From contig NZ_JACHHW010000001.1 in assembly GCF_014202945.1 (NCBI RefSeq), forward strand, positions 496,001 through 560,000: a stretch of 64,000 bases of DNA. The letters run 5' to 3'. The position numbers and the translations under genes were made by a program. Shown in pieces: positions 29,881 through 49,747 of this stretch (within the stretch, counting starts at the first letter, position 1; each line of letters begins with the position of its first letter). The notes beneath the pieces are model-generated. The model was not told where the DNA came from. It searched no databases and saw only the letters and a list, made by a program, of their open reading frames with translations. The stretch is from Zhongshania antarctica. GTDB lineage: Bacteria > Pseudomonadota > Gammaproteobacteria > Pseudomonadales > Spongiibacteraceae.

Positions 29881-30936
29881 TCATGGACTTACTGGGTAAT
29901 CGCTATAACCTTCTGGGCCCGGCGAATACAGTAAACGCGGGTTCATTTCAGCCAGTGGCAAGTCATTTGCAAAGCGATGTGGTAAATCTGGATTGGCAAT
30001 AAATGCCCGCCCAAACGACACCGCCGCAATCTGCGGATCTGCCAACGCCGCTTCTGCCTCATCGCGGCTATAGCTGTCATTCACAATGAGCGGACCATTA
30101 AAATGCGCTTTCGCTAAGGCGATATTATCTTGAATTTTAGGCATGCGAATGACGTGCAAATACGCCAAGCCCATTTGGTCGACCGCATCGAGCAAGGCCG
30201 CGAATGTCGCGCAGTGATCGTCATCTTGCAGATCATTAAAGGGATTGCCAGGGCAAATTCGCATACCAACACGGTCAGCGCCGTCTACCGCTGTCATTGC
30301 CGCTAATAACTCAATAACGAAGCGTAGGCGGTTCTCCAACGAGCCGCCGTACTGGTCATCGCGGTGATTAGTACCGGTACTCAGGAACTGTGCGGGAAGA
30401 TAGCCACTGGTGCAGTGCAATTCAACACCATCAAAGCCGGCAGCATATGCCATTTCTGTCGCGCTCACGTAGTCGGCAATCGTTTGTTTAATATCGCCTA
30501 GACTCATCGCCACTGGCGTCACAAAGTCTTGCATGCCCGCTTCAGTATAAATTTGTCCCTGGGCAGCGATCGCCGAGGGCCCTACCGTTCTTACCCCTAC
30601 CCCTTTGTTATCGCTGTGGGCCACTCGACCACAGTGCATTAACTGCAGCACAATTTTGCCACCGCGCGCGCGCACAGCATCACAGACCTCTGCCCATGCA
30701 TCTTGCTGAGCCAGAGTGTACATACCCGGCGTGCGGCAATAGCCTTTGCCTTCCGCACTTGGGTGGCAGCCCTCGGTAATAATAAGGCCGGCGCCGGCGC
30801 GTTGCGCGTAATAGTCCTTCATTATCTGATTAGGCATACCATCCTGCGCTTCTGCGCGGGAGCGGGTCATGGGCGCCATGACCACGCGATTCGCTAAACT
30901 CATGCGGCCTAAGTTTACGGAACTCAGTAATTGCAT
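29881..30936 (-). CDS. NemA/OYE-like ene-reductase with altered active site
   Basis: 351 residues, the usual size for a single-domain Old Yellow Enzyme. FMN-binding start 'NRVVMAPMTRSRAEAQDGMP', then 'DGVELHCTSGYLPAQFLSTG', NHRDDQYGGSLENR and 'IAAVSFGRAFIANPDL'. Where NemA-type enzymes have H-x-x-H/N-GYL to hold the substrate carbonyl, this one has H174-C-T-S177-GYL, so the second donor is Ser. It may reduce or isomerise activated double bonds of enones with NAD(P)H. It is the last gene of the eight-gene operon and its ATG overlaps the stop of the SnoaL-like gene by one base (TAATG), so translation is coupled. Confidence 0.88.
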   Translation of the reverse strand: MQLLSSVNLGRMSLANRVVMAPMTRSRAEAQDGMPNQIMKDYYAQRAGAGLIITEGCHPSAEGKGYCRTPGMYTLAQQDAWAEVCDAVRARGGKIVLQLMHCGRVAHSDNKGVGVRTVGPSAIAAQGQIYTEAGMQDFVTPVAMSLGDIKQTIADYVSATEMAYAAGFDGVELHCTSGYLPAQFLSTGTNHRDDQYGGSLENRLRFVIELLAAMTAVDGADRVGMRICPGNPFNDLQDDDHCATFAALLDAVDQMGLAYLHVIRMPKIQDNIALAKAHFNGPLIVNDSYSRDEAEAALADPQIAAVSFGRAFIANPDLPHRFANDLPLAEMNPRLLYSPGPEGYSDYPVSP

Positions 30937-31556
30937 TATCTCACCCTAATTTTTGGTGCGGGACTGCCGCGGCGCATACGCGTTAAAAACTCATCGACCG
31001 GTGCCGGCGGGGCAACTTCAGGCAGTTCTGCCGGGCTGTTTTGCCAGAACTCTTTCCAGCTGGGGAACAGCTCGTGAAATGCGCCGTAGTAGGGTTCTCT
31101 GCCCGGCCAGCGCATTTTCATATCGCCGATTGGCGGCTTATTCAAATCAGTCGCATACCAGTAACAGGGCAAGCGACGCCGAAAATACCAACGACCGTCA
31201 ATGCGCTGGTAATCATCCCAGTACAACATTTGCATAATGACCCACTCGCCGCCGCACTCGTGTTCATTTTTAGAGTACAACACGCCAATGGCGTTATCTG
31301 GGTCTTTAAATTCGATAATGTGATTACCAGTGTGATGCGAGGTACCGGTAAACTGGTGGCGCAGAGTATCGTCTACCCAAGCTTTTAGATGACTGCGACC
31401 ACTGTGTTCTCTACTCACCCTAATGTCTTCGGCAAATAAATTCACGTGGGCGTCGAGATCACGCATATCCAAAGACAGGGAATACTTGGCTACCAACTGG
31501 CGAATTTCGTCCAAGGATTCGAGTCGATCAATACGCTGCTCTAGAGAAGTTGTCAT
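30936..31556 (-). CDS. SnoaL/NTF2-fold protein (BaiE-like dehydratase candidate)
   Basis: 206 residues from the ATG at 31556; a GTG five codons earlier overlaps the SDR stop and is less likely. The fold is SnoaL/NTF2 (EIRQLVAKYSLSLDMRDLD, ending in a Trp-rich C-terminal part). Residues Y25 and D30 and the His cluster at 74-79 align by spacing with the Tyr, Asp and His that are reported catalytic in the bile-acid 7-alpha-dehydratase BaiE; the DDYQRIDGRWYF strand also matches. A dehydratase of a hydroxysteroid is therefore plausible, but many NTF2-fold proteins share this pattern. It lies two bases after the SDR stop and one base into the OYE start. Confidence 0.65.
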   Translation of the reverse strand: MTTSLEQRIDRLESLDEIRQLVAKYSLSLDMRDLDAHVNLFAEDIRVSREHSGRSHLKAWVDDTLRHQFTGTSHHTGNHIIEFKDPDNAIGVLYSKNEHECGGEWVIMQMLYWDDYQRIDGRWYFRRRLPCYWYATDLNKPPIGDMKMRWPGREPYYGAFHELFPSWKEFWQNSPAELPEVAPPAPVDEFLTRMRRGSPAPKIRVR

Positions 31557-31558
31557 CG

Positions 31559-32338
31559 TTAATCTCCCCACGCCGCCGCGCCAGTATTGAGTTCAGCCAT
31601 GCGGCCACCGTCTACCGGAAGAACAGCACCAGTGATATAGGACGCGTCATCGCTGGCCAAGAACAGAATCGCATTCGCGCACTCGCGAGGATCGCCAATA
31701 CGCTGCAGGGGAATCGTTTTGCCCGTGGCTTTTTGGCTGTCTTCATCGGGGTTTACCGATTCCAGCGACGGCGTTAAAAACGCCCCCGGCACCACCGCAT
31801 TACAGCGAATTTGGGGTGCCCATTCGATGGAAGCATTGCGGGTCAGCGAGATCATTGCCGCTTTGGCAGCACTGTAACCGGCGGTTCCCATTGAGCCTGC
31901 CAGACCGCACACCGAGGACACATTCACCACCGCGCCGCCATTGGCACGCAATTGCTTAAAGGATTCGCGCATCAAAAACATTGCGCCATCGAGGGACACT
32001 TGAAAGTTTTGATGCCAGGCCTTGGTTTTGTGATTAGCCAACATGCCCGGCACCATCAGCACTGCATTGTTGACGATAATATCGATTTTACCGAAATGAG
32101 CGACCGTATCTTCAACTAGCTTTTTAACCGCCAACTCGTCACTGACATCCACCGACAGTGGCAGGCATTCGCCGCCAGCATCTTGGATGGTTTTGGCAAC
32201 AGCTTGCAGCGGCTCAAGACGACGACTGCAGATCACCACCTTCGCGCCCTCTTCGGCAAAGCGAATTGCCGTGGCCGCACCAATGCCCTGACCGCCCCCG
32301 GTAATAATGGCAACTTTGCCCTGTAGTCTCTTCGTCAT
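31559..32338 (-). CDS. Short-chain dehydrogenase (BaiA-like SDR)
   Basis: 259 residues from the ATG at 32338, which has AGGAG five bases upstream; an earlier in-frame start lacks one. NAD motif TGGGQGIGAAT at residues 12-22, NNAV at the end of strand 4, catalytic YSAAKAA around residue 155 with Ser upstream (VNVSSVCGLAGS). A classical SDR of the size of bile-acid BaiA and hydroxysteroid dehydrogenases. It probably oxidises or reduces a ring hydroxyl/keto group with NAD(P). It is followed by the SnoaL-like gene and preceded, 19 bases upstream, by the amidohydrolase, all co-directional. Confidence 0.9.
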   Translation of the reverse strand: MTKRLQGKVAIITGGGQGIGAATAIRFAEEGAKVVICSRRLEPLQAVAKTIQDAGGECLPLSVDVSDELAVKKLVEDTVAHFGKIDIIVNNAVLMVPGMLANHKTKAWHQNFQVSLDGAMFLMRESFKQLRANGGAVVNVSSVCGLAGSMGTAGYSAAKAAMISLTRNASIEWAPQIRCNAVVPGAFLTPSLESVNPDEDSQKATGKTIPLQRIGDPRECANAILFLASDDASYITGAVLPVDGGRMAELNTGAAAWGD

Positions 32339-32357
32339 AACGGCTCCTAATACTTTA

Positions 32358-34121
32358 TTAGCGTGATTCATTTGAAATCACGTCACATTCATTGCGGCCG
32401 CGCTGAAAATAGCAGCGACCCGCAATCCAAACTTGATCGACCTCGAAGTTCAGTAAATTATCTTCGCTAGCCAACGGGCTGCGATCCAGCAGCACCAAAT
32501 CAGCAAACTTACCCACCTCTAATGAACCGATGTCCTGCTCTTTAAAACTTTGCCAAGCGGCATCGATGGTCACCGCGCGCAGCGCTTGCAAAGTATTAAT
32601 ACGCTGTTCGGCACCGAGTACCTCGCCGCTGCGGGTTTGCCGAGTGACACTGGTCCACAGCAATCTGGCCATGTCCATGGGTACGACCGGAGAATCGAGA
32701 TGCACCGTAAAGCGCAGATCGGCAGCCTGCGCCTCGGCAAGTGGGCTAATACGCCCTCCACGTTCAGGGCCGAGGAATTGATCGCGATGGCGATCACCCC
32801 AAAAATACGTATGAGCACTAAAAAAGCTGGGGCTAAGACCGGCCTTTTTCATTCGAATAAGTTGATCGGAGCGAGCCATTTGGCCGTGGACTAAAATCGG
32901 TCTGGCATCGGCGCGAGGACAAGCTTGCTGGGCATATTCAATGGCCGTTAACACCATGTCGATAGCGGCATCGCCGTTACCGTGGAGCGCTAACTGGTAA
33001 TTTTTGCAGTGCAGGGTTTTGACCTGCGCATTCAACTCCTCTTGCTTATAGCGAGAAAAGCCGCGATAGCCAGCATCACTACTGCCAGTTTGCTGTTGAT
33101 AATAGGGCTCGGATAGATACGCGGTGTAGCCCTGAATACTGCCGTCGACAATGATCTTTATTGCCGAGGCAGAAAATGTATCTGACTGGAAATCGTCGAG
33201 GCTCAGCGCGCCACTCTTTAGCTCTGCCTCCATTTTGTCTGCCAAGGGCCAGACCATTACCCGCTGGGGCATACGCTGCAGTTTAGACAGCCAATACAGG
33301 CCATTGAGCAAGCGCGAATCGACCCCGCCGCTCTGCACTGTGGTGACCCCAGCAGCAAGGTATTGGTCCCGGGCGGCGTCCACCATGGCAAGAAAATCAA
33401 GGCCTGAGAAATCCATGGCTTCGGCAGCCACCAGATCGGTCGCATGCTCAAGTAGCAGCCCGCTAGGCTGGGCAGTGTTGCCTTCGCGGACAATAACCCC
33501 ACCTTCAGGGTCGGCGGTCTCGGCGCTAATTCCGGCACGGCGCAAGCCTGCGCTATTCACCACCGCCAAATGCCCAGAGCTGTGCATGAGGTAAATAGGT
33601 CGCGTCGTAGACACCGCATCGAGGTCGTGACGATTCGGGTGGCGCTTTTCTAGTAAGAGCGAATCATCGTAGCCAAAGCCAAACAGCCAATCCTCGTCCT
33701 TGCCGGTTTTTGCTGCCTCAGCTAAGTGCTGTTGAATATCACTAATACTGCGGACAGCGCCCAAGGGCGGGCTACTTAAATCTGTGCCCACTGCGCTAAG
33801 GCCCGTACCGGGAAAATGCCCGTGGGCATCAATAAACCCGGGCAGTAGCGTTTTGCCCTTAAGATCGTATACAACAGTACCAGCCTGACGCAGGGCCAAA
33901 ATTTCATCATCGTTGCCCAGTGCTTCAATACGCTCACCGCGCACTGCCATCGCCGAGACCACGCGATTACTATCATCCATCGTTAAAATCTGACCGTGAA
34001 TGAACAACTGGAGCGGCGGCAAAGGGGGCGTTGCGCCTCGCAAATAGTAATAGCCAACACACAACACCACCGCCGCTAACAACAAGGTGAAGACAAGTAA
34101 GCCCACGATAATTTTTTTCAT
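32358..34121 (-). CDS. Membrane-anchored amidohydrolase (YtcJ-like)
   Basis: 587 residues from the ATG at 34121, one base after the upstream stop. Residues 2-25 form a hydrophobic helix (IIVGLLVFTLLLAAVVLCVG), so the enzyme is probably tethered to the inner membrane with the catalytic part outside. The HxH metal motif is GFIDAHGHFPGTG, and the usual amidohydrolase ending 'EVGKFADLVLLDRSP' is present. YtcJ-like enzymes hydrolyse amides or related bonds of unknown substrates with bound metal. In this operon it could cleave an amide-linked side chain before ring degradation, which is an inference. The neighbouring genes on both sides are within 20 bases. Confidence 0.85.
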   Translation of the reverse strand: MKKIIVGLLVFTLLLAAVVLCVGYYYLRGATPPLPPLQLFIHGQILTMDDSNRVVSAMAVRGERIEALGNDDEILALRQAGTVVYDLKGKTLLPGFIDAHGHFPGTGLSAVGTDLSSPPLGAVRSISDIQQHLAEAAKTGKDEDWLFGFGYDDSLLLEKRHPNRHDLDAVSTTRPIYLMHSSGHLAVVNSAGLRRAGISAETADPEGGVIVREGNTAQPSGLLLEHATDLVAAEAMDFSGLDFLAMVDAARDQYLAAGVTTVQSGGVDSRLLNGLYWLSKLQRMPQRVMVWPLADKMEAELKSGALSLDDFQSDTFSASAIKIIVDGSIQGYTAYLSEPYYQQQTGSSDAGYRGFSRYKQEELNAQVKTLHCKNYQLALHGNGDAAIDMVLTAIEYAQQACPRADARPILVHGQMARSDQLIRMKKAGLSPSFFSAHTYFWGDRHRDQFLGPERGGRISPLAEAQAADLRFTVHLDSPVVPMDMARLLWTSVTRQTRSGEVLGAEQRINTLQALRAVTIDAAWQSFKEQDIGSLEVGKFADLVLLDRSPLASEDNLLNFEVDQVWIAGRCYFQRGRNECDVISNESR

Positions 34122-34122
34122 A

Positions 34123-36261
34123 TCAGAGCCTAACCGCGAGTTCACGGGCGGTGCGCATAGCGCCATCGATGTAGCTAATGTCGGCACTGTCACCAATATT
34201 ATGTGCTTCGATATTAATTGCCGATAGCTGACTCAATATCGACGTGTCTGGCTCTGCACCTAGCGCAATAATCACATTATCGACATCAAGCTCACCATGG
34301 TTTTCACCCTGCGTATAGCAGACCGAACCGGCGGTTATCTCGCTCACACTTGCCCCCCGGCGCAGATCCACACCGTGAGATTTCAAGTCGTGGAGCACAC
34401 GCCAGCGGCGCACAACACTCAGTTCGCTACCCAAGTCGCGGCCCGCCTCGAGCACCGTCACCTGACGGCCACGTTCAGCGAGTAACTCAGCGACTTCTAA
34501 GCCCACTAGGCCGCCGCCGATAATGCATACTTTTTTGCCCAAGGGCATATACACATGACTAAGCTTTCTGAGCACGTCGATATTGCGGCTCAGCCCCAGC
34601 ATATGAGATAGACGCAGCATCACGCGGTGATACCAGGTTAATTTACCCTGCGCGCGGCCCGCGAATAACATATCTCGGAGCTGTTCGCCGTCCAGTACAT
34701 GGGGCAAATCTTTACCGGCAATAAGCGGCGCACTGCGCTTCGCGCCGGTAGCCAATACCACGGCATCGACGCCCGCCGCTTTTATACTCTCAATGCTTGC
34801 CATTTTATTTAGCGATACCGCAATCGGCAGTTCAGCAATGGCATTCTTAAGGTATGTCAGTAAATGGCTATTGGGCTCATAGGCCAACGCAGCAACCCGC
34901 AGGGTACCGCCGAGCACTGAGTCCCCCTCCCAAAGTTGTACTTGATGGCCACGCAAGGCGAGAACACGGGCCGCCTCCATTCCTCCCGGACCGCCGCCAA
35001 CAACCAGAATTCGCCGCGGGGTGTCCGCTGGAATAATCTGCCCTAAGGTATTTTCATGACCAACAGCGGGGTTCACGGCGCAGCGCAATGGCTGATTTAT
35101 AAAGATTTGGCTAACGCAGATATAGCAGTAAATACAGGGGCGGACATCGCTCTGGCGACCATCCCGCAACTTGTTGGGCAACTCTGGATCCGCTAATAAT
35201 TTCCGCCCCATGGCCAAGAAGTCAAAGTCGCCTGCGGCGATATGGCGCTCGGCAACGTCGGGCTCAATACGACCAACCGCAATGACGGGAATACCTATCG
35301 CCGCTTTAACCGCTTTGGCAAAACCAATATAGCCGCCGGGCTCGTGCACCAATGGCCCCTCGGTAAAGCCGATAGCGCTGTTGTTTGAGTAGGCACTGAC
35401 ATTGATGGCATGACAACCCGCAGCCTCAAGCATTTTGGAAACGGCAACTGCATCGGCGATGGTTATACCACCTTCCGTACGATATTCATGGGCGTCTATG
35501 CGCACCATAATCGGAAACTCATCGCCTACGGCAGCCTTAATTGCAGCAACCACTTCGAGTAATAAACGGGCGCGATTTTCCAAGCTGCCGCCGTAATTAT
35601 CATCTCGACGGTTGGCGTAAGGCGAAAGATATGACGACAGTAAGTAGCCATGCCCAGCGTGAATCTCTACGCCATCAAAGCCCGCATCAGCAACCAAACG
35701 CGCCGCAGAGGCAAAGCAGCCAACCACCCAGTCGATATCCTGCTGATCCATTTCCTTATAGCGCGGGCCTTTGCCATCTGGCCCGGCGGAGCGCACGAAA
35801 TTCGCCATTTCCGCCATGGTGAGGCCTTCACCCATATCATTGGCCGCGGGTTTGGGGCGCGAGGGAACAAGTATCTCCCTTCCTTCAGCGACATCGAAGG
35901 CAGACACCTTGCCGCTGTGATTTAGCTGCGCGGCGATGCGGCAATCATGTTTCTGCACACGCTGAGCCAGTTCGCTAAGACCTGGCAAAAACTCATCTTT
36001 AGATAAGCCCAGCATTTTCGGCATCGACATACCAAAAGGCCATGCGACCGAACTGGTTTCCAGCACAATCATGCCGACGCCACCCGCCGCGCGCGCCTCG
36101 TAGTAGGCCATAGCGCGCTCGCAAATACTGCCGTCGTCGAGAATAAACTCGGTGCCCATTGCCGCCAATACGGTGCGATTACGCAGCTCCATCTGGCCAA
36201 TAGCGGCCCCAGACATCAACTTAGGGTGATGGCACTCACGAAGCTCCTTTGCCTTAATCAT
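34123..36261 (-). CDS. FAD/FMN/Fe-S ene-reductase (2,4-dienoyl-CoA reductase / BaiCD-like)
   Basis: 712 residues from the ATG at 36261, which overlaps the Rieske stop by eight bases; an upstream ATG at 36327 would overlap it by 74. N-terminal OYE-type TIM barrel with the donor pair H201-AGH204-GYL and NRRDDNYGGSLENR. The Fe-S cluster has Cys376, 379, 382 and 394 (C-x2-C-x2-C-x11-C), then the FAD motif GGGPGG at 422-427 and an NAD motif GGGLVGLE further on. This is the architecture of 2,4-dienoyl-CoA reductase and of BaiCD/BaiH in bile-acid dehydroxylation. It would reduce or desaturate a conjugated ring ketone. No nearby gene supplies electron transfer, so NAD(P)H is the likely donor. Confidence 0.9.
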   Translation of the reverse strand: MIKAKELRECHHPKLMSGAAIGQMELRNRTVLAAMGTEFILDDGSICERAMAYYEARAAGGVGMIVLETSSVAWPFGMSMPKMLGLSKDEFLPGLSELAQRVQKHDCRIAAQLNHSGKVSAFDVAEGREILVPSRPKPAANDMGEGLTMAEMANFVRSAGPDGKGPRYKEMDQQDIDWVVGCFASAARLVADAGFDGVEIHAGHGYLLSSYLSPYANRRDDNYGGSLENRARLLLEVVAAIKAAVGDEFPIMVRIDAHEYRTEGGITIADAVAVSKMLEAAGCHAINVSAYSNNSAIGFTEGPLVHEPGGYIGFAKAVKAAIGIPVIAVGRIEPDVAERHIAAGDFDFLAMGRKLLADPELPNKLRDGRQSDVRPCIYCYICVSQIFINQPLRCAVNPAVGHENTLGQIIPADTPRRILVVGGGPGGMEAARVLALRGHQVQLWEGDSVLGGTLRVAALAYEPNSHLLTYLKNAIAELPIAVSLNKMASIESIKAAGVDAVVLATGAKRSAPLIAGKDLPHVLDGEQLRDMLFAGRAQGKLTWYHRVMLRLSHMLGLSRNIDVLRKLSHVYMPLGKKVCIIGGGLVGLEVAELLAERGRQVTVLEAGRDLGSELSVVRRWRVLHDLKSHGVDLRRGASVSEITAGSVCYTQGENHGELDVDNVIIALGAEPDTSILSQLSAINIEAHNIGDSADISYIDGAMRTARELAVRL

Positions 36262-37294
36262 CGCGGCTACCCGCAATGAGGAACTGACCATACCAGCGGC
36301 GAAACTTCGCAAACGGGCCGTCGCCATCGCACAGTAATGGCTTTTCTAAATACACTTTATGCGCCCAAATGATTTTGTCTTCTTCCATTTGCTGACAAAT
36401 ATCATCGACGATAGCCTGGGCGACACGCCCCATGGTTTTACCGCCGCCGTCGCGCTGGATAAAAGCGTAATGGGCGCGAGAATGATGGGCATCAATGGGT
36501 GTTATATTGGCCATGAGCACGGTGTCGCAAATACCACTAAAACGCACAACGGACAAACCAGGCCCAGTGCTACTATTTTCTATACGTCCTTGAATGGTGC
36601 CCTTGGGCGTCACCATCTCAGACTCAAATAAACCGTGGCGTAGAAAGCCATCAAACTCGCTGCAGGTGGGCTCTGGAATTTCTGGCGTGCCGTGCACAAA
36701 GCAAAAATGCGCAGCGTCCACGGCATTTTCGCCAATTTCTTGCATATGGGTATCGATATCCCACTGCTGAATTTTGAGCTCGCCCCAGTCACCATTATCC
36801 GACGCCGCCTCCGGAATCGCCGGTGGCTCAAAAAGTGGCTCGATATTCTCAGGGTGGTACCACACGTAGATACACTGATTCAGCTCGCGAACATGCCAGC
36901 TGGGAATCAGCTTTTCGCAGCGCGCCACCCGCGGCGGCAAATTTTTAGCATAGGGGATGCCCGTGCATTCGCCCTCGCCGTTAAACTGCCAGCCGTGGAA
37001 GGGACACACAATACTCTCGCCAACTACGCGAGAGCCGCCGCCAGCGTTGTCGCGTATGCCATAGCCTAGGTGTGCCCCCATATGTGCGCAGTGGGCATCC
37101 AGCACTTTGGCAAGGCCGGACTCGGTTCTGAAAATCACTAATTCCCGATCGAAATAGAATAGCGGCAGAGACGTGCCAACGGTTAATTCATGGGAATACA
37201 AAACCTGAAACCAACCAAAGGGCATCGGCAAATTAACTCGCTGTGCTTGGCGAGTATGAGACCTTGCTATGGTGTCGTTTGTCTTATTCATCAT
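36254..37294 (-). CDS. Rieske non-heme iron oxygenase, alpha subunit (KshA/Neverland-like)
   Basis: 346 residues. Rieske ligands are C69-x-H71 and C97-x2-H100, with 25 residues between them instead of the usual 15-17. Next come IPYAKNLPP (as in KshA's IPYARRVPP) and the catalytic iron His196 and His201 in VDAAHFCFVHG. KshA hydroxylates 3-ketosteroids at C9 during ring opening, and Neverland/DAF-36 desaturates cholesterol at C7; the family is therefore steroid-prone. A reductase partner (KshB) is not encoded nearby. The gene overlaps the SDR upstream by one base (TAATG) and the ene-reductase downstream by eight, indicating tight coupling. Confidence 0.88.
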   Translation of the reverse strand: MMNKTNDTIARSHTRQAQRVNLPMPFGWFQVLYSHELTVGTSLPLFYFDRELVIFRTESGLAKVLDAHCAHMGAHLGYGIRDNAGGGSRVVGESIVCPFHGWQFNGEGECTGIPYAKNLPPRVARCEKLIPSWHVRELNQCIYVWYHPENIEPLFEPPAIPEAASDNGDWGELKIQQWDIDTHMQEIGENAVDAAHFCFVHGTPEIPEPTCSEFDGFLRHGLFESEMVTPKGTIQGRIENSSTGPGLSVVRFSGICDTVLMANITPIDAHHSRAHYAFIQRDGGGKTMGRVAQAIVDDICQQMEEDKIIWAHKVYLEKPLLCDGDGPFAKFRRWYGQFLIAGSRDD

Positions 37295-38058
37295 TATCCC
37301 CGCACCGCGCCGCCGCCATCTACCGACAGTAATTGACCGGTGATAAACGACGCTCGCTCAGACAGTAAAAAGGCAACCGCATGAGCGATTTCCGATGGTT
37401 CACCCAGACGCTGCATGGGCGCAACTTTGCGTAGCTGCTCTTCCATTTTTGGCTGTTCTTGAAAGTATTTTTCTAAACCCGGCGTGCGAATGACGCCCGG
37501 TGACACCGCATTGATTCGAATGCCTTTGCTGGCATACTCGGTAGACGCGCTCTTGGTCAGAATATTAACCCCGCCCTTGGCTGTCGCGTAAGCGGTATTA
37601 AAGGCCTGCCCACGCAGCGAGGCATTTGACGAGATATTCACAATGCTGCCGCCGCCGGAGGCCAGCATTGCCTCGATCTCGTACTTCATACATAACCAGG
37701 TATTCGTAAGACACAACTCCAGCGTTTGATCAAAAACCTCACGAGTGAATTGATGTATTGGGCCACTACCACGGCTCACCGCCGCATTATTGCAGGCAAT
37801 ATCCAAGCGGCCATAGCGCTCAACCACAGCCGCAACCATCGCGCTAACCTGCTCCTCATTACTGACATCACAGGCGATAAAAAAAGCCTCTATACCGCTT
37901 CTATTTAGCTCAGAAACGCAGGCTTCGCCAGCTTCCCGATTAAAATCGACTACCGCAACACTTGCCCCCTCTGCGCCCAACTGTTGGCAAATTGCACGAC
38001 CAATACCTGCGGCGCCACCGGTAACTAATGCAACTTTATCTTTTAACATCTGATTCAC
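37294..38058 (-). CDS. Short-chain dehydrogenase/reductase
   Basis: 254 residues. NAD motif TGGAAGIGRAI at residues 14-24, CNNAAVSRG after strand 4, Ser in VNISSNASLRG, catalytic YATAKGG, and the ending FITGQLLSVDGGGAVRG. A classical SDR of hydroxysteroid-dehydrogenase size. Its ATG overlaps the stop of the membrane-protein gene by four bases and its stop overlaps the Rieske start by one. Position between an inner-membrane protein and an oxygenase fits a ring alcohol/ketone step; the exact substrate is not readable. Confidence 0.9.
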   Translation of the reverse strand: MNQMLKDKVALVTGGAAGIGRAICQQLGAEGASVAVVDFNREAGEACVSELNRSGIEAFFIACDVSNEEQVSAMVAAVVERYGRLDIACNNAAVSRGSGPIHQFTREVFDQTLELCLTNTWLCMKYEIEAMLASGGGSIVNISSNASLRGQAFNTAYATAKGGVNILTKSASTEYASKGIRINAVSPGVIRTPGLEKYFQEQPKMEEQLRKVAPMQRLGEPSEIAHAVAFLLSERASFITGQLLSVDGGGAVRG

Positions 38059-38573
38059 AACTCCTCTGCGCTTATTACCGACTGCTTGCGCAACGGGTAA
38101 AGCGCCATGTAAACAATGGGCATAACAACCAAGCCCGCTAACAAACCAGTAAACAATGATTTACTCAGCACATATTGAATACGGCTAAGCCCGTCGACAT
38201 CCAGAGCAAGAAACATCATAAACAGTACGGGTAGGGAAATTACGCCGGCGTAAATCGCCAGCATCAGGGCTTTTAGCGCGTTACGACGAATCGCAATATG
38301 AGAAAATAGTTTTAAAAAGATGAGTGGCGGCTCGGCGCCAACACGCACTTTTTTCAAAGCGTGTTTCTGCTGTAAGGGCAGTACGATTAAGCTAAGCACA
38401 AATACCAGTATTACCGCCGTTGCGATAAAATCTGCCAACACACCATTACCACCCAAAATAGGCAGACGATCCCGGCCCGCGCTCAGGTACCACGCAAACC
38501 CGCCATTGATGACAGCATTGCTCAAGCCACTGACGAAGGATTCCCTTAACAAATAGCTGCGCATTGACTGCAT
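38055..38573 (-). CDS. Small integral membrane protein of unknown function
   Basis: 172 residues with about four hydrophobic segments (17-29, 48-67, 100-122, 138-160). No known motif or family was recognised; Lys/Arg-rich loops suggest an even number of passes with both ends inside. It is the first gene of the eight-gene operon and its stop overlaps the SDR start by four bases (ATGA), so it is clearly part of the pathway, perhaps in moving or holding a hydrophobic substrate. An AGGAG ribosome site precedes the ATG. Confidence 0.75.
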   Translation of the reverse strand: MQSMRSYLLRESFVSGLSNAVINGGFAWYLSAGRDRLPILGGNGVLADFIATAVILVFVLSLIVLPLQQKHALKKVRVGAEPPLIFLKLFSHIAIRRNALKALMLAIYAGVISLPVLFMMFLALDVDGLSRIQYVLSKSLFTGLLAGLVVMPIVYMALYPLRKQSVISAEEL

Positions 38574-38595
38574 CGACCCTACTCCTTATGCGTAA

Positions 38596-38625
38596 TTGAC
38601 ATTGTTATTGCTGTAACGTCATATT
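38596..38625 (+). promoter_or_regulatory. Candidate sigma-70 promoter for the AraC gene
   Basis: TTGACA at 38596-38601, then 18 bases, then CATATT at 38620-38625. It lies 87 bases before the AraC start in the divergent region. The -35 is perfect and the -10 moderate. Confidence 0.35.
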
Positions 38626-38665
38626 AGGCCAAACTGTAATTCGCTAAAGCACATAATCTTTCATA

Positions 38666-38685
38666 AGCGTCAACATTTAGCGTCA
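38666..38685. promoter_or_regulatory. Direct repeat AGCGTCA ... AGCGTCA (possible AraC half-sites)
   Basis: AGCGTCA occurs at 38666-38672 and 38679-38685, thirteen bases apart, in the divergent region between the operon and the AraC gene. AraC-family proteins often bind direct repeats. The spacing is short of two helical turns, so this is tentative. Confidence 0.3.
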
Positions 38686-38711
38686 CGCATAGTAGTTCTA
38701 AGAGAGAAAGT

Positions 38712-39821
38712 ATGACGGACATCAATAGATTACATGACATACCGGTGAAGAAATTCCAACGATTATTGGATTACCTTGAGCATGTCGGCATTGATTCTAA
38801 GAATATCGCCAAACAAGCAGGCCTTGATGCCAAAAAGCTATTATCAGCATCGGAGAATCGCACGTTGCCGGGCTACAAGTACTCCGCACTTTACGAATAT
38901 GCGGCGGAAGCCATGCAGGAAATGGATGTTGCTGTTCCCTGGGGAGCGGGAATAGGAAGCGATGTATTTCGTTTTATGTGCTACAGCATTATTAATTGCC
39001 AAAATTTAGAGGAGGCGTTGAACCGCGCCGCTCGCTACCAAAAAATGCTCTACCCCATCACCGGTTACAAGATTACTATTAACACCACCTCAGACATCAC
39101 CGAGCTGCGCTACGAATTTAATAGCGACTTCGCGAATAAGCAATTTACCCCAAAATCTTGGGACCGCAATGAACATTCCGACGCCGTCGCGAAAGCCTCT
39201 GGTCTTCGGGTATGGTTTGCTTTTATCGGCTGGCTAACCGCAAGAGAACTGCAACTAACGGGCCTGACTATATCGGCCCCACCCGTGTCCGATGCTTACA
39301 CCACGAGCATGGGTACGCTGCTAGGAATTACCCCGGAATTTAATGCTGAACACACGGCACTATTTTTCAATAGCAGTACTTTACGCGCCAGAACAGTACA
39401 TACGCCGACATCACTTGAGGCATTTCTACAACACGCGGTTTATTCTCTTATCACCCAAGACTCACGGCCTGCTAGTACGAGTGCAGCAATACGCTCCTTA
39501 CTTGCTAATAGCGGCACAGGAAGCTTACCGAGCTTTGAGGCAATGGCCGAGGACCTACACATGTCGCCCTCCAGCTTGCGGCGTAGACTACATAGCGAAG
39601 ACACAAGCTATCAAGAGCTAAAAGACCAATACCGTTGCGATATTGCAATGCGCCAACTGCGCAACCCAATGCTCAAAATACATGAAATCGGCGAGCAATT
39701 AGGCTTTTTAGAATCTAGCTCGTTTATTCGCTCCTTCCGAAATTGGGCAGGCCTAACACCAAAGCAGTTTCGCGATCAGTTAGATGACATTGATCAAGCT
39801 AAGCCCACAATCAGCGACTGA
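38712..39821 (+). CDS. AraC-family transcriptional regulator of the Bai-like operon
   Basis: 369 residues. The N-terminal arabinose-binding-like domain (PF12625 style, residues 20-215) carries GSDVFRFMCYSIINCQNLEEAL, as in OruR/VirS-type regulators. The C-terminal double helix-turn-helix is 'PSFEAMAEDLHMSPSSLRRRL' and 'LKIHEIGEQLGFLESSSFIRSF'. It is divergent from the eight-gene minus-strand operon, with 138 bases between, and is the obvious candidate activator of that operon, with a pathway intermediate as inducer. AGAGAG precedes the ATG. Confidence 0.88.
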   Translation: MTDINRLHDIPVKKFQRLLDYLEHVGIDSKNIAKQAGLDAKKLLSASENRTLPGYKYSALYEYAAEAMQEMDVAVPWGAGIGSDVFRFMCYSIINCQNLEEALNRAARYQKMLYPITGYKITINTTSDITELRYEFNSDFANKQFTPKSWDRNEHSDAVAKASGLRVWFAFIGWLTARELQLTGLTISAPPVSDAYTTSMGTLLGITPEFNAEHTALFFNSSTLRARTVHTPTSLEAFLQHAVYSLITQDSRPASTSAAIRSLLANSGTGSLPSFEAMAEDLHMSPSSLRRRLHSEDTSYQELKDQYRCDIAMRQLRNPMLKIHEIGEQLGFLESSSFIRSFRNWAGLTPKQFRDQLDDIDQAKPTISD

Positions 39822-40059
39822 GGGTAATATAGAGAGCCACAAAAAGGGTAGATCCGCAAATGATTCCCAGCACGCCCTTTTACCAAAACAAACACGATTT
39901 AAGTGTTAATTTATCTTAATAAAATTGACTTTCTTTGCCTCCATACCGAAGTATGAAATACAGCAAGCCCGGCCTCATACTGAATATACTTTGCGAAAAG
40001 GGCATTCTCGCCCTTATAAATTTATCCACGTTTTAAAAATCAGACCGCCCCATATTGGC

Positions 40060-40087
40060 TTGACAAAAAATAAATCGATGGGATACT
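40060..40087 (+). promoter_or_regulatory. Candidate sigma-70 promoter for the Rnk-like gene
   Basis: TTGACA at 40060-40065, 16 bases, GATACT at 40082-40087. A perfect -35 and a good -10, 194 bases before the Rnk-like start, in a region without other genes. Confidence 0.4.
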
Positions 40088-40173
40088 TGCTTACTATGAG
40101 CAAAAAAATTCACCCAAGTTCTCCTCTCTTTCAGGCTATTCTGCCTGTGGTCTTTTGTGCCCGACATGTTATT

Positions 40174-40203: not shown

Positions 40204-40280
40204 TAAATTTTTTACCAGACAATATTCCAGCCACCGCAAGCTAATTAGCTCGTGGAGGTTTTTTGCTGCGGGTGAGATAT

Positions 40281-40788: not shown

Positions 40789-42141
<1,353 letters not shown>

Positions 42142-43133: not shown

Positions 43134-45647
43134 TTAATAGCGGTAGCGCACGTCCATACCGAAGGTACGCGGAGCGCCATACTGTTCACTAATCAAACCT
43201 AAGCCCTGAAAGTTAAGGCCATAAGAAGGATAGTCATCATCGGTGAGATTATTCACCCACAACGACACCATCAAATCGCCGGTAGCAACAGGAATCTTAC
43301 TTAGGCTGAGGCGCGCGTTAACAACTGTTCGTGCGTCCATTGAGCTATTCGTGTACAAAAATGGTGTATTAGCAACCACCGAGGGCGACAGCGCAACCTG
43401 CTCCCAGGTGTCCTGCCAACTGGCATCAGCAAACACATTAAAATCACCAATCGCGGTACTCGCGAAAGTATAGTCCACACTGGCGTTTACCTTATTGCTT
43501 GGTGAGTTACCGCGTTTAGCTTCCTTTGTGCCATCGATACACTGGTTATTAGCGCAGGTATCTGGGTACTTTTCAAAATCACCGTTGATGTAGGTATGCG
43601 CCAAACTCACTATCATATCTTCAATAGGCGCTACTGATACCTCTAACTCGCTGCCCCAACGATCTGCCTTACCGGCATTAATGGTCGAGGATGTTACACC
43701 ACCGCCGGAGCTTTCTAACACACTCGTTTGAAGGTCGTCGTACTGGTAAGTGTAGAGGCCAGCATTCACACGCAAGCGATTATTCCACCAGTCTGACTTA
43801 ACTCCTATTTCCAACTGTTCAATAATTTCTTCATCAAAACTATCATTAAAGACTTCGCCATTAAAGCCACCCGAGCGGTAACCGGTCGCATAGCGAATGA
43901 AGCTGTTAATATCGTCACTGATATCGTAAGCCACTGTTACGTTGTAGCTGAAATTGTAAAAATTCTCATCGCGCGATAGGGCTTGCGCAGGCTTATTGCC
44001 AAATGGCGTAGCCACCGCACCTAAGTCATAGGCGAGTGCCTTTTCCTCCTCGGTGTAGCGCATCCCTAAGGTCAAGGCTAAACGATCTTCTAATTGAGCA
44101 AAGCGGTAAGTACCTTGCCCATAGATGGCCAAGGCCTCGGTTTCCAGTGTATATCGCAGCGCGTCGCGCCCCGCGAGTGGCATTGCGAAGGCAGCACGGC
44201 GATCGTAGTTTGCCTCATCTTCAAACCAATACAAGCCTAGGGCGTAATCAAACTGTTGCGTTGCACCGACAACTTGGAACTCTTGCGAGAGCTGCTCATA
44301 TTCAGAGAGCGTATCTTGTATGCTGTGACCAGCGCCAAGCTGATCTACCGCAGTCCAGAGCGCATCTACACCCGGGAATGAAGCACCGCTGCTGCCACCG
44401 TAATACTGGAGTAAAACGGCGTGTAAGCCGTCGTTATACACACCAATACCATTGGCATCTAAGCTACTATCAATATCATCGAGATCGCCAGCAACATAGG
44501 TTTCAGTCTCGCGTTGCGCAGTGATTGATTTAAGCGTGACGTCACCCAAGGCGCCACGGTCACCTAGCTGCCACTCAGCCGTTAGCGCGTGCCCGTCGAC
44601 CTCACTTTGCGTCGTCGGCGTGACCTCAACCCCACCACCACTTGGCCGACCTTCACCGCCAGCCAATATCCGCTCGTAGGCGTCAATCGTTTTCTGAATA
44701 GAAGGCAACCAACGGGCGCTGATACGCGGATCAGCCCCCGGCGCCGATGCCAAACCTGTGGCAGATGGTAAAACAGTGTTGCGCAAGAAGTTCAGTCGAT
44801 CACCGCCAAGCGTCGGCCCTTCGGTAAATCCCACGGTTTTTTGCAGGGTATTCACCTCATCCAGCTCGCTGTGGTCATACACATAATCAAGGGTAAGCGC
44901 CTCGCTTGGCTGCCAACGTAATGCGGCACGCCAGGCTTGACGGTCGATGGTGTCAAAGTCTTCGCCACCAGAATAATTCTTATAAAAGCCATCGCGCTCT
45001 TTGCTTAAAAAGCTAACGGCCGCATTCAACTTACCTGCACCTTCACCCACTTGGCCAATCGAATCAAAATCAATATTGGTTTTCAGGGTTTGCTGACCGT
45101 AATTGCCAATACCCGCCGTTACGTCTACCGCGAATTCGCCCAGCGGCTTTCTAGAAATAATATTCATTGCACCGGCGGTCGCATTACGGCCGTATAAGGT
45201 GCCCTGGGGGCCGCGAAGGACCTCAATTCGTTCAATCTGCGCGAGATCCAGAGCGGAGCCAAGCATCTTGCCCACATAAACGCCGTCCAGATACATGCCC
45301 ACCGCAGGATCAAGCGATATATTCGCAGGGGAGCCACCGGATATACCGCGAATACTAAGACTGGTAATACCCCGCGAGCCAGGTGCTGAATAGCCACCCA
45401 TGCCAGGCAATGAGGCAAACATATCGTCGGTATTACTAATACCGCGCTTTTCTATGTTGTCACTGGTCATTGCCGTCATTGCAATCGGGGTATCTTGTAA
45501 AGATTCAACCCGGCGCTCGGCCGTGACCAGGACCTCCTCTAAAACTTGGGCTGAAGCAAAAGACACAAATAGCGGGGCACTCATCAACGACACCGCCAAG
45601 GGCAACGCCGCTAATTTAAAATCACCAGTGGACGAAAATTTCTTCAT
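43134..45647 (-). CDS. TonB-dependent receptor (substrate unassigned)
   Basis: 837 residues. The signal peptide is longer than in the other receptors (MKKFSSTGDFKLAALPLAVS and SFASAQ), then LEEVLVTAERRVESLQDTPI as TonB box and plug start, and 'IERIEVLRGPQGTLYGRNAT' in the plug. The barrel ends in FGMDVRYRY, with a final aromatic. It lies downstream of the second Rieske oxygenase and 3-alpha-HSD-like SDR on the same strand, but with its own 187-base upstream gap. GGAG is eight bases before the ATG. It probably imports the substrate of those enzymes. Confidence 0.9.
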   Translation of the reverse strand: MKKFSSTGDFKLAALPLAVSLMSAPLFVSFASAQVLEEVLVTAERRVESLQDTPIAMTAMTSDNIEKRGISNTDDMFASLPGMGGYSAPGSRGITSLSIRGISGGSPANISLDPAVGMYLDGVYVGKMLGSALDLAQIERIEVLRGPQGTLYGRNATAGAMNIISRKPLGEFAVDVTAGIGNYGQQTLKTNIDFDSIGQVGEGAGKLNAAVSFLSKERDGFYKNYSGGEDFDTIDRQAWRAALRWQPSEALTLDYVYDHSELDEVNTLQKTVGFTEGPTLGGDRLNFLRNTVLPSATGLASAPGADPRISARWLPSIQKTIDAYERILAGGEGRPSGGGVEVTPTTQSEVDGHALTAEWQLGDRGALGDVTLKSITAQRETETYVAGDLDDIDSSLDANGIGVYNDGLHAVLLQYYGGSSGASFPGVDALWTAVDQLGAGHSIQDTLSEYEQLSQEFQVVGATQQFDYALGLYWFEDEANYDRRAAFAMPLAGRDALRYTLETEALAIYGQGTYRFAQLEDRLALTLGMRYTEEEKALAYDLGAVATPFGNKPAQALSRDENFYNFSYNVTVAYDISDDINSFIRYATGYRSGGFNGEVFNDSFDEEIIEQLEIGVKSDWWNNRLRVNAGLYTYQYDDLQTSVLESSGGGVTSSTINAGKADRWGSELEVSVAPIEDMIVSLAHTYINGDFEKYPDTCANNQCIDGTKEAKRGNSPSNKVNASVDYTFASTAIGDFNVFADASWQDTWEQVALSPSVVANTPFLYTNSSMDARTVVNARLSLSKIPVATGDLMVSLWVNNLTDDDYPSYGLNFQGLGLISEQYGAPRTFGMDVRYRY

Positions 45648-45834: not shown

Positions 45835-46923
45835 CTACGTATCAGCCAGCACCTGTCTGTGCAGCAGTGACTCTGGAGGCGGCTCGGCCAAACCGACGAC
45901 GCCATGCACACCATTAACCATTGTGTGCACTGCGATAACAGCCTCGCGAGGCACATAAAATTGGGTATACCACTTGCGCCCAAGAGAAAATGGGCCATCG
46001 GTTTTAAGCTGTAAAACCCTAAATGCCGGCTTTTTGTGTTTCCAAATACCAAAATCCGCAGCCAAAGACGCCAGCGCGCCAGCCTGCAGTTCCCGGGCCT
46101 GGTCGACATCCGCACTGGTCGGATTCTCCTTACCACTATTGACCATTAAGCCATGCCATAACTTCACGCGGCCATCGTCCACCGGCGTGTTAGCGATCAT
46201 CTCAACACTCTCTATATCGCCAAAAATCTGGTGCGAAAGCAGGATTCCAGGTCCCTCGTACCATGTCGTCGTGCGCAGCATCGCTTGGTACTCCTGATGC
46301 AAACCACCCTGACGCTGAATATAGATATGATCCATAAATTCGTTTTCGAAATATTCACATGGCGCGCCATGGGTCGGCCCTAAATGACGGGCATCGGCCA
46401 TATTGTCGATGATTTCCTGGGGGTGAACGTCCAGCTCCCCGAGGTGATCCAGCTGCCATTTAATCCAGCTCTTATTCTGCCAATGCGGCAGATTTGGCAC
46501 GGGAAAATCCGGCCCTTTGCCCTCGGGGTCATGCCACATCCATATACAGCCTAAGCGCTCCTCTACCAAGTAACTTTCCAGTTTGGCAGAACGGGGTTTA
46601 GGCCCGTCAAAATAAGGAATATCGTCGCAGCTACCATCCGCAGCAAACCGCCAGCCGTGATAGGGGCAACGAATAGAGTCACCTTCTATTTGCGCTCCTT
46701 CACGGGCAATAATCGCGCTGTCGGCGGCGAGGTGACACTGCATATGCGGGCAGTGTGCATCGAGTAAAACCGGCTTGCCGCTCTCCCCTCGGTATAACGC
46801 AAAATCCTTGGCAAAATATTTCAGCGCAAGCGGCTTCGCCTGTAATTCACTCGCCTCGGCAATAACAAACCAGCCGCGAGGAAATTGGTGGGACCCAAGC
46901 CCATATTCTGTTCCCGTCGCCAT
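45835..46923 (-). CDS. Rieske non-heme iron oxygenase, alpha subunit (second copy)
   Basis: 362 residues. Rieske ligands C58-x-H60 and C86-x2-H89, again with 25 residues between, then DIPYFDGPKPRSAK as in KshA-type proteins, and the iron site His180 and His185 in MADARHLGPTHG. It differs from the 36.2 kb enzyme throughout except at these motifs, so it is a paralogue with its own substrate or position. It should act with a separate ferredoxin reductase. Nine bases separate it from the upstream 3-alpha-HSD-like SDR, so the pair is one unit. Confidence 0.88.
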   Translation of the reverse strand: MATGTEYGLGSHQFPRGWFVIAEASELQAKPLALKYFAKDFALYRGESGKPVLLDAHCPHMQCHLAADSAIIAREGAQIEGDSIRCPYHGWRFAADGSCDDIPYFDGPKPRSAKLESYLVEERLGCIWMWHDPEGKGPDFPVPNLPHWQNKSWIKWQLDHLGELDVHPQEIIDNMADARHLGPTHGAPCEYFENEFMDHIYIQRQGGLHQEYQAMLRTTTWYEGPGILLSHQIFGDIESVEMIANTPVDDGRVKLWHGLMVNSGKENPTSADVDQARELQAGALASLAADFGIWKHKKPAFRVLQLKTDGPFSLGRKWYTQFYVPREAVIAVHTMVNGVHGVVGLAEPPPESLLHRQVLADT

Positions 46924-46932: not shown

Positions 46933-47694
46933 CTATATTGAATGTGGACGATACATGGCGTCATGGCCGCCATCGACATAAAGTAGCGAGCCACTGACAA
47001 AACTCGCCTCTGAACACAATAAGAAGCCGATGACATTTGCGATTTCACTCACATTGCCGGCACGCCCCAAAGGAATCGTCGCTAAAAAGTCGAGGATTGC
47101 GGCTCTATATTTGGGGTCTTTTTCCGTCGCCTCGGTCATTGCTGTTCGGGTATAACCAGGCGCCACCGCATTCAGTCTCACGCCAGAACGGGCATAATCA
47201 GGCGCATTTTTTCGCATCCAAATCGCAACTGCTTGCTTCGATCCACTGTAAGCCGCATGACCAGAGATACTGGCCAAGCTCGATTGCAATTGGTCTTGAT
47301 CACCAGAAAGCAAGGCCGCGACATAGTTAGGATCCGTCTCTTGCGGTGCCGAATTTGACGACACCAACACCGCCGCGCCACACCGCATAACTAATGCATC
47401 TTTCAAACCCTGCAGCAATTCAACCGATCCGAAAAAATTGACCTGCGGGATCATGCCCACATCTGGACTTGCGCTCCCGATACCCGCACAGCAAACCAGA
47501 CCATCCAAACCGTCGTTGCAAACCGCTAAGCAGGCCTGTAAAGCCGCTCTGCGCCCCTCAGCCGTGGCCAAGTCCGCTACAATATCTGCATTATGGCGAT
47601 CAAGTTTAATCACCGTTTCGCCATCATCTTCAAGTCGTGAACAGACTGCGGCACCAATACCTGAGGCGGCGCCGGTAACAATAAATTTTCCCAT
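46933..47694 (-). CDS. SDR resembling 3-alpha-hydroxysteroid dehydrogenase (HsdA-like)
   Basis: 253 residues. NAD motif TGAASGIGAAV; then ADIVADLATAEGRRAALQAC, the unusual 'GLDGLVCCAGIG' segment, 'GAAVLVSSNSAP', YSGSKQA as catalytic Tyr-Lys, and the ending VDGGHDAMYRPHSI. The order of these parts, especially the A-D-L-S/T-T-A-E-G-R stretch and the VDGG-D-A-M-RP end, closely follows the Comamonas testosteroni 3-alpha-hydroxysteroid dehydrogenase/carbonyl reductase as remembered, including the missing NNAG. It would oxidise 3-alpha-hydroxysteroids to 3-ketosteroids. It is upstream of the second Rieske oxygenase by nine bases, a chemically sensible pairing. Confidence 0.82.
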   Translation of the reverse strand: MGKFIVTGAASGIGAAVCSRLEDDGETVIKLDRHNADIVADLATAEGRRAALQACLAVCNDGLDGLVCCAGIGSASPDVGMIPQVNFFGSVELLQGLKDALVMRCGAAVLVSSNSAPQETDPNYVAALLSGDQDQLQSSLASISGHAAYSGSKQAVAIWMRKNAPDYARSGVRLNAVAPGYTRTAMTEATEKDPKYRAAILDFLATIPLGRAGNVSEIANVIGFLLCSEASFVSGSLLYVDGGHDAMYRPHSI

Positions 47695-48052: not shown

Positions 48053-48922
48053 ATGAAATTTAGCTATAACCCAAGTATGTGCCCACCCGAGCAATATCTA
48101 GCCCTAGCGTTAGCGGCAGAAGAGCTGGGCTTCAATAGCATGGCCTTTCCCGACAGTCTCTGCTACCCGGAACACTCATCGGCAAACTACCCCTACAACG
48201 GCGACGGTTCGCGGGATTTCTTAAAAGATATGCCCTTTGTTGAACCCTTGGTGACGATTCCATTTTTGGCGGGACAAACAAAACGGCTACGCTTTAACAC
48301 CTCAGTGTACAAGCTCGCGGTTCGCCAGCCGCTGGTTGTCGCCAAGCAGCTGGCAACACTGGCCGCCCTGTGCGGAGACCGCTTTGATTTTGGCGTTGGC
48401 ATTAGCCCCTGGCCAGAAGACTTTGAAGGCTGCCATGTGCCTTGGGAAGCGCGTGGAGAGCGTCTTAATGACCAGATTAAAATCATAAGAGGCTTACTAA
48501 CGGGTGAATTTTTCAGTTACACCGGCAAGCAACTCTCAATAGCAAGCATGCAACTTTGCCCAAGCCCCAAAACACCCATCCCCATTCTTATTGGCGGGCA
48601 TTCAGACGCGGCATTGAAACGCGCTGCGCGCCTTGGCGACGGTTGGATTGGCGCGGGCGCGAGCACTGAAGAGTACGGGGTCTTGATTAGTAAATTAAAT
48701 GAATTTCGAAAACAATATCAACGCGACCACCTTCCCTTCGTTATCCACGTTAGTTCCGCCGACGCCTACTCCACCTCTGGCCAGGACGCTCTCGCCAATC
48801 TAGGCGTTAACGAATGCCACATCGCCTTCCGCAACGCCTACGATGGCACACCAGACACACTCAGTACGGAGCAAAAAATTGATCAAATGCATAAGTTCGC
48901 GACCAAAGTCATAAAGTCTTAG
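48053..48922 (+). CDS. Luciferase-like (LLM) flavin-dependent oxidoreductase
   Basis: 289 residues. TIM-barrel LLM pattern: 'LALAAEELGFNSMAFPDS', VTIPFLAGQTKRLRFNTSVY, 'DFGVGISPWPEDFEG', IKIIRGLL and 'PIPILIGGHSDAALKRAARL'. Members use FMN or coenzyme F420 to oxidise or reduce aldehydes, ketones or cyclic substrates; the F420-type IGGHSxAALRRA form is similar, yet F420 use is not established here. It is followed 69 bases later by an SDR on the same strand, probably in one transcript. Possible role: Baeyer-Villiger-like or dehydrogenation step of a ring ketone. Confidence 0.85.
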   Translation: MKFSYNPSMCPPEQYLALALAAEELGFNSMAFPDSLCYPEHSSANYPYNGDGSRDFLKDMPFVEPLVTIPFLAGQTKRLRFNTSVYKLAVRQPLVVAKQLATLAALCGDRFDFGVGISPWPEDFEGCHVPWEARGERLNDQIKIIRGLLTGEFFSYTGKQLSIASMQLCPSPKTPIPILIGGHSDAALKRAARLGDGWIGAGASTEEYGVLISKLNEFRKQYQRDHLPFVIHVSSADAYSTSGQDALANLGVNECHIAFRNAYDGTPDTLSTEQKIDQMHKFATKVIKS

Positions 48923-48991
48923 TCACAATATTTACACGCGAAGGCAAATTATTTGATCATAACCTTAGACCTATTTTTAAAGGATATTACA

Positions 48992-49747
48992 ATGAGAAGA
49001 CTTGAAGGAAAAGTTGCCATCGTTACTGGCGCGGGTCAGGGTGTAGGGCAAGGTATTGCATTTGCACTAGCCGCTGAAGGCGCGAAAGTTGTGGTAACGG
49101 GTCGAACCCTAAAAAAGCTGGAATCGAGCTGCGCAGAGATCACCAAGCGTGGTGGCGAAGCCTTAGCAGTTGAGTGCGACATCAAAGATCGGACCGCTTT
49201 GGCGTCGCTGGTATCCGCTAGTGTTAAACACTACGGCGGTATTCAGATATTGGTAAACAATGCCCAAGAAGTCCCCTTAGGCAGCCTGCACGAAATAGAG
49301 GACGAGGCATTGAGCGCCGGTTTTGAATCCGGGCCAATCGCCACCTTCCGCTTAATGAAGCTGTGTTACCCGCACTTGAAGGGCGATGGCTGTATCATCA
49401 ATCTCGCCAGTAGTGCCGGAAAGCGCTGGGACATGTCGGGTTATGGCGGCTATGCAGCGACCAAGGAAGCAATTCGTTCGCTGTCGCGAGCGGCCGCCTG
49501 CGAGTGGGGCAAAGACGGTATCCGCACGAATGTTATTCTTCCGCACGCCTTATCGCCGGGCCTTGAATGGTGGATAAATGATCGGCCCGAAGAGGCCGCC
49601 GCGTATTTAGCGAGCATTCCAATGCAGCGCCTAGGCGATTGCGAAGACGATATCGGCAAATTCGTGGTGAGCTTGTGTTCAGAAGATAGCCGCTATGTAA
49701 ATGGGCAGAGCATCGCACTGGACGGCGGCCAAGCATTTTTAGGGTAA
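48992..49747 (+). CDS. Short-chain dehydrogenase/reductase
   Basis: 251 residues from the ATG at 48992, with AAAGGA nine bases before it. NAD motif TGAGQGVGQGI, NNAQ instead of NNAG, Ser in INLASSAGKR, catalytic YAATKEA, and GQSIALDGGQAFLG end. A classical SDR. It is downstream of the luciferase-like gene and would handle an alcohol or ketone in the same path. An AT-rich gap separates it from the convergent Rnk-like unit. Confidence 0.88.
   Translation: MRRLEGKVAIVTGAGQGVGQGIAFALAAEGAKVVVTGRTLKKLESSCAEITKRGGEALAVECDIKDRTALASLVSASVKHYGGIQILVNNAQEVPLGSLHEIEDEALSAGFESGPIATFRLMKLCYPHLKGDGCIINLASSAGKRWDMSGYGGYAATKEAIRSLSRAAACEWGKDGIRTNVILPHALSPGLEWWINDRPEEAAAYLASIPMQRLGDCEDDIGKFVVSLCSEDSRYVNGQSIALDGGQAFLG

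Follow-up and report, generated by a model that had tools for sequence, protein, structure and literature searches.

A putative aerobic bile-salt locus with a 12-hydroxyl-removal module in Zhongshania antarctica

What would genes resembling those of anaerobic bile-acid dehydroxylation do in an aerobic bacterium? The question is raised by a 64,000-nucleotide stretch of the 3.85 Mb genome of Zhongshania antarctica (assembly GCF_014202945.1, contig NZ_JACHHW010000001.1, positions 496,001 to 560,000), hereafter the window, in which eight minus-strand open reading frames (ORFs) occupy positions 29881-38573. An earlier interpretation made from the DNA letters alone (the sequence-only reading) saw here a tightly packed set of BaiCD/BaiH-like and BaiE-like proteins joined to a KshA-like oxygenase, possibly an undescribed route for steroid or bile-acid ring processing. 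The packing is real: the ORFs run head to tail on one strand, with overlaps of 1 to 74 bases at each of the seven junctions when the longest-ORF starts are used. Our analysis suggests that this operon belongs to a locus for the aerobic catabolism of 5beta bile salts with a 12alpha-hydroxyl, a reading to which we give a probability of about 0.85.

The SteB-SteC-SteD core

Three genes at one end of the operon carry this reading. They encode an alkene reductase of the old yellow enzyme (OYE) family (351 aa, Oxidored_FMN, PF00724; 29881..30936, minus strand), a SnoaL-like protein with an NTF2-type fold (211 aa, SnoaL_4; 30936..31571, minus) and a short-chain dehydrogenase/reductase (SDR; 270 aa, adh_short_C2; 31559..32371, minus), termed SDRa. 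Their identities to SteD, SteC and SteB of Comamonas testosteroni ATCC 11996 are 51%, 76% and 47%, respectively. In an SDR tree built from 26 of 80 SnoaL loci, four plasmid loci and the window SDRs, SDRa falls within a 27-row SteB clade with support of 100/98. A search of PDB structures with the SnoaL protein ranks a putative scytalone dehydratase and LinA above BaiE, which comes fourth (E 0.003). Tyr30 and Asp35 align with the Tyr and Asp of BaiE, which together with the BaiE histidine we take to be catalytic; that histidine aligns with His80 and not with His79, while Tyr30, Asp35 and His79 are invariant across 87 distinct SnoaL homologues.

The neighbourhood of the SnoaL gene is also characteristic. 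A scan of named genomes for the protein gave 248 pattern matches, 229 of which were relatives, and the best 80 loci (74-96% identity) were used. A Sor1-like OYE lies near the SnoaL gene in 63 of them and a SteB-like SDR in 61; both are present in 60 (at least 45% and 44% identity, respectively). Among the families that recur in the flanks are a BphC-type extradiol dioxygenase, CoA transferase, a nitronate-monooxygenase-like protein, enoyl-CoA hydratase, acyl-CoA dehydrogenase, thiolase and AMP ligase. Flanking genes were simple ORF picks, some of them misplaced in GC-rich loci, and the counts of these flank families are therefore lower bounds. One locus is that of C. testosteroni ATCC 11996 itself (L095), where an SDR, SteB, SteC and SteD stand beside TesB and ScdL1/L2 and the SteD counterpart directly adjoins SteC. 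This order matches Table 1 of PMC8399759, which gives consecutive locus tags to SteA, SteB, ORF7 (Hsh1), ORF6 (Sor1), TesB, ScdL1 and ScdL2. According to the same source, Hsh1 and Sor1 remove the former 12beta-hydroxyl; PMC13101464 describes SteC as a C12beta-hydroxyl dehydratase, a SnoaL/NTF2 protein that resembles BaiE (about 28% identity), and has SteD reduce the double bond that SteC leaves. By sequence comparison, then, the BaiE-like gene is the SteC/Hsh1 orthologue and, with its neighbours SteB and SteD/Sor1, forms the published aerobic module for 12-hydroxyl removal.

Some homologues occur in other settings. In two loci (L092 and L098, 9908-11537) an Hsh1 homologue of 77% identity is directly followed by a luciferase-like gene, and the available locus DNA gives no Sor1 match; a luciferase-like reductase perhaps takes Sor1's place. 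An Hsh1 homologue of 79% on a contig binned as Acidimicrobiia (L056:10007-10630) has neither SteB nor Sor1 adjoining, which may reflect transfer or misbinning. The Vibrio alfacsensis plasmid pVa1 (L111) carries Hsh1, a Sor1-like gene, SDRs, a FadD3-type ligase and a KshA-group Rieske gene, as do two further V. alfacsensis records; a 2016 survey of 186 marine Vibrio genomes reported no steroid genes.

A search for the eight-gene order, which the sequence-only reading had called for, found it in 8 of 57 related genomes, counting that of the window, in nine copies, two of them in Zhongshania sp. BJYM1. All eight genes also stand in order in 5 of the best 80 SnoaL loci and in each of five congeneric regions that were read out (G008 and G013 count in both sets, as their contigs are those of loci L030 and L032), so that the order is not a matter of chance. 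The genus group includes Z. aquimaris, Neomelitea salexigens and Spongiibacter marinus besides BJYM1, and the SnoaL orthologue is absent from 10 of its 18 genomes. In the five congeneric regions the conserved unit exceeds the operon and extends over about 29881-49747.

Flavoenzyme, oxygenases and distant steroid genes

The second flavoenzyme of the operon, BCD (734 aa, Oxidored_FMN and Pyr_redox_2; 34123..36327, minus, likelier ATG start at 36261), has BaiCD as its second NCBIfam match. In a tree of 47 OYE-type proteins, limited to those of 600-820 aa, it belongs, with support of 99/99, to a clade of 35 rows that also contains homologues from Pseudomonas, Comamonas, Thauera and Sphingobium, where it forms its own branch in a three-way split without clear order. 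The clade includes a Sphingobium herbicidovorans plasmid protein that takes the place of Nov2c19 in a gene order fitting nov2c12-nov2c19 of Sphingobium sp. Chol11, a match drawn from locus numbers, and nov2c19 is listed as 5beta-Delta4-KSTD1 in Table 1 of PMC8399759. BCD shares the OYE and pyridine-nucleotide domains of Nov2c19 and CasH and differs from both in its separate branch. Clade and domain architecture fit the OYE-type 5beta-Delta4-ketosteroid dehydrogenases, and its assignment to relatives of that family is clear at the sequence level. Activity within the family varies: PMC8044976 lists Nov2c19 and CasH as active, and Nov2c085, Nov2c314 and C211_11427 as inactive.

RO (346 aa; 36254..37294, minus) is a Rieske oxygenase that, like KshA1 of Rhodococcus rhodochrous and KshA3 of R. 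jostii RHA1, contains Rieske and KshA_C domains. Its best PDB matches are KshA (E 1.6e-34), and the positions that we take to be the Rieske and mononuclear-iron ligands are invariant. A tree was made from 75 matches reduced to 58 distinct rows, with rows longer than 420 aa cut to the C-terminal part. Here RO falls in a separate 40-row lineage (100/99), apart from the presumed KshA of Comamonas and Pseudomonas and from the KshA-like gene that adjoins TesB in its own genome; KshA status was itself assigned by best match and linkage. RO2, a second KshA-like enzyme (45835..46923, minus), sits, on a long branch, with the presumed KshA of C. testosteroni, and long-branch warnings attach to the trees, RO2 and SDRc included. 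The distance between the two groups of presumed KshA is about the same as that from either to RO, and RO's separateness thus does not exclude 9alpha-hydroxylation, which we regard as its somewhat favoured role. Its best NCBIfam match, 4beta-methylsterol monooxygenase, was rejected at 48.5 of 600 bits, four other Rieske proteins scoring 51.6-57.6. The idea that RO is the main KshA of the genome was also rejected, as the TesB-adjacent gene fills that place. RO orthologues (at least 486 bits) occur in 11 of the 57 genomes, all 11 of which have the SnoaL orthologue, compared with 6 of the 46 others.

Genes of the 9,10-seco steroid pathway lie elsewhere on the chromosomal contigs. HsaA-, TesB- and KshA-like genes stand side by side at C1:361108-364296, and a 67% match to IpdA/ScdL1 is found at C3:139700; together with the orthology of SteB, Hsh1/SteC and Sor1/SteD and the BCD family assignment, the presence of such genes is established by sequence comparison. 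The SnoaL orthologue (at least 337 bits; next match 52 bits) is present in 17 of the 57 genomes, and TesB (at least 200 bits) occurs in 16 of these versus 12 of the 40 others (Fisher p 7e-6; such co-occurrence tests ignore the relatedness of the genomes).

Proposed pathway and alternatives

We suggest the following route, in which the roles of the amidohydrolase, SDRb, RO and RO2 and the substrate of BCD are the inferred parts. A TonB-dependent receptor would import the bile salt, and the anchored amidohydrolase may free it of taurine or glycine. BCD would introduce a Delta4 double bond into the 5beta A-ring. As SteA is missing, oxidation of the 12alpha-hydroxyl is assigned to another SDR, and SDRb (254 aa, adh_short_C2; 37294..38058, minus) would be first in line; SteB would then reduce the 12-keto group to a 12beta-hydroxyl. 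KshA-type oxygenases (the TesB-adjacent one, RO2 and perhaps RO) would 9alpha-hydroxylate the steroid and open ring B. After the loss of ring A, Hsh1/SteC would remove the 12beta-hydroxyl as water, Sor1/SteD would reduce the resulting double bond, and the C/D-ring remnant would join the common methylhexahydroindanedione propionate (HIP) route.

Several observations weigh against this reading. A Litorivivens SteA query gave no match at E<=1e-30 in the window genome or in four other genomes with the operon; one Haliea genome likewise had none, and matches were confined to 2 of 8 genomes searched, Litorivivens itself and UBA5047. The HsaA-like protein scores 360 bits, below the cut-off of 450, and 7 of 14 control genomes have sub-cut-off matches to the family as well, so its assignment rests on adjacency. 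The search for 9,10-seco genes was confined to KshA, TesB, HsaA and IpdA. One genome with the SnoaL orthologue (G050, a 390-contig assembly) has no TesB match. Finally, the single BCD homologue of Pseudomonas stutzeri Chol1 is reported as inactive and its deletion as without phenotype (PMC8044976).

The SteA result bears on how the operon is classed. SDRb lies outside the SteA clade of the SDR tree and was ruled out as a SteA orthologue; on both grounds the operon is classed as a variant of the 12-hydroxyl module without SteA. Litorivivens has SteA-SteB-Hsh1-Sor1 and a separate MEM-SDRb-RO-BCD block, MEM being a small membrane protein. As both are present there, SDRb need not replace SteA, which weakens the idea of a stand-in. 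Judged by sequence, the window operon resembles that block with the amidohydrolase and SteB-Hsh1-Sor1 added.

A different explanation would make the operon an aerobic counterpart of the anaerobic Bai pathway, with 7alpha-dehydroxylation by BaiCD/BaiH/BaiE-type enzymes. The operon does share fold families, dehydration and OYE chemistry with the Bai operon of Clostridium scindens (BaiCD, BaiH, BaiE), and this distant kinship, visible in the weak BaiE and second-ranked BaiCD matches, is what survives of the claimed likeness. The sequences are remote, however: BCD reaches only 424.6 bits with the BaiCD model, whose equivalog cut-off is 825, while the 76% identity to C. testosteroni SteC is far closer and, with SteB and Sor1 as neighbours, puts the dehydratase at C12. 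The Bai enzymes act at C7, anaerobically and without ring cleavage. On the BaiCD score and the SteC identity a Bai pathway in this aerobe was rejected, and we consider it very improbable. Slightly less credible still is an operon acting on a non-steroid alicyclic substrate with borrowed steroid-like genes; OYE, SDR, SnoaL_4 and Amidohydro_3 are indeed generic families, but the operon's Ste orthologues and their co-occurrence with TesB speak against it. The same two lines of evidence give good support to the broader claim of steroid or bile-acid ring processing in an aerobe.

A more serious alternative concerns a part of the pathway. RO and SDRb could together oxidise a position other than C9, as a new step atop the known 12-hydroxyl removal. 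RO's separate lineage and its pairing with SDRb would fit this, and a third 9alpha-hydroxylase seems redundant because the genome already has RO2 and the KshA beside TesB. On the other side stand the equal distance between the presumed KshA groups and the known multiplicity of KshA, with a cholate-dedicated KshA1 in Rhodococcus (PMC4064121); Chol11 has five KshA homologues, three of which showed low 9alpha activity (PMC8540908). Oxidation away from C9, whether for RO or for the pair, is a tentative second choice. It seems rather unlikely that this third-lineage Rieske enzyme, its own SDR and an F420-type enzyme define a marine, F420-using variant in which they oxidise the ring away from C9 or take SteA's part.

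Neighbouring genes and related systems

The amidohydrolase (612 aa, Amidohydro_3, PF07969; 32358..34196, minus, likelier ATG start at 34121) has an N-terminal hydrophobic segment, and near copies (over 700 bits) occur only in the eight operon genomes among the 57. A cholate-induced amidohydrolase has been proposed for deconjugation in Caenibius tardaugens (PMC12882949), and the present enzyme is possibly a bile-salt amidase. MEM (172 aa; 38055..38573, minus), which adjoins the relatives of BCD and RO, gave no family in a Pfam search; the best PDB fold match of its model (mean pLDDT, the predicted local distance difference test, 79.2) has E 0.86 and thus does not identify it.

Beyond the operon, five genes are kept in all five congeneric regions: a divergent AraC-type regulator (38712..39821, plus; PF12625, PF12833), the TonB-dependent receptor (43134..45647, minus; PF07715, PF00593), SDRc (46933..47694, minus), an F420-type luciferase-like oxidoreductase (48053..48922, plus) and a further SDR (48953..49747, plus). 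RO2 is kept in four, and another TonB receptor (27206-29677) in one. Between the AraC and TonB receptor genes, at 40263-42828, two small GreA/GreB-like genes flank a glutamate dehydrogenase gene; these genes recur in one congeneric region (G010) and are lacking in the other four. The genes at 9450-26225 (two P450s, an AMP ligase, a thiolase-like protein, a TonB receptor and a sulfotransferase family protein) are possibly lipid or sterol side-chain genes; they too are kept in G010 and mostly not in the other four.

The luciferase-like protein scores 177.9 bits with TIGR03619, an F420-dependent family (cut-off 166.9), and copies of at least 71% occur only in the eight operon genomes among the 57. 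cofD is over its cut-off in all 27 genomes with a luciferase-like relative (E<=1e-20) versus 4 of the 30 others, which supports use of F420 by the enzyme. The F420 genes cofC, cofD and cofE (G000:C1:354354-356903; L155:10354-12903) are some 5.5 kb away from the TesB-KshA genes. Linkage alone makes the enzyme a candidate for a steroid role.

The closest known systems are SteABCD of C. testosteroni TA441 and SteA-SteB-Hsh1-Sor1 of P. stutzeri Chol1, which have orthologous SteB, SteC/Hsh1 and SteD/Sor1 side by side and are likewise linked to 9,10-seco steroid genes. Unlike these, the window operon has no SteA, lies away from the TesB region and adds MEM-SDRb-RO-BCD and the amidohydrolase. The bsd II cluster of Caenibius tardaugens and nov2c12-nov2c19 of Chol11 share Hsh1, Sor1, SDRs and an AraC regulator, whose gene stands beside hsh1/sor1 in both (PMC12882949); in Chol11 a 5beta-Delta4-KSTD is also nearby (PMC8399759 Table 1; order taken from locus numbers). 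Their gene order differs, and the portions of these sources consulted show no operon-borne Rieske gene.

A search of open-access literature with Zhongshania, Spongiibacter, steroid and bile-acid terms and generic gene names found, by titles and abstract openings among the papers listed, none on the locus. The claim of an undescribed route is for the most part wrong: published work already has these enzymes remove the 12-hydroxyl (PMC13101464, PMC8399759), whereas the eight-gene arrangement, the absence of SteA and the role of the RO lineage are not described in the literature searched. Chemistry and enzyme families are known; what is new is the arrangement, with one oxygenase of candidate role.

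Isolates of the Spongiibacteraceae that grow on cholesterol have been reported (PMC5790920). For these marine bacteria, known steroid degraders that have been little studied genetically, the operon offers a concrete putative bile-acid locus. It shows that the 12-hydroxyl module can occur without SteA, and it marks the RO lineage and the F420-type enzyme as candidate steroid enzymes.

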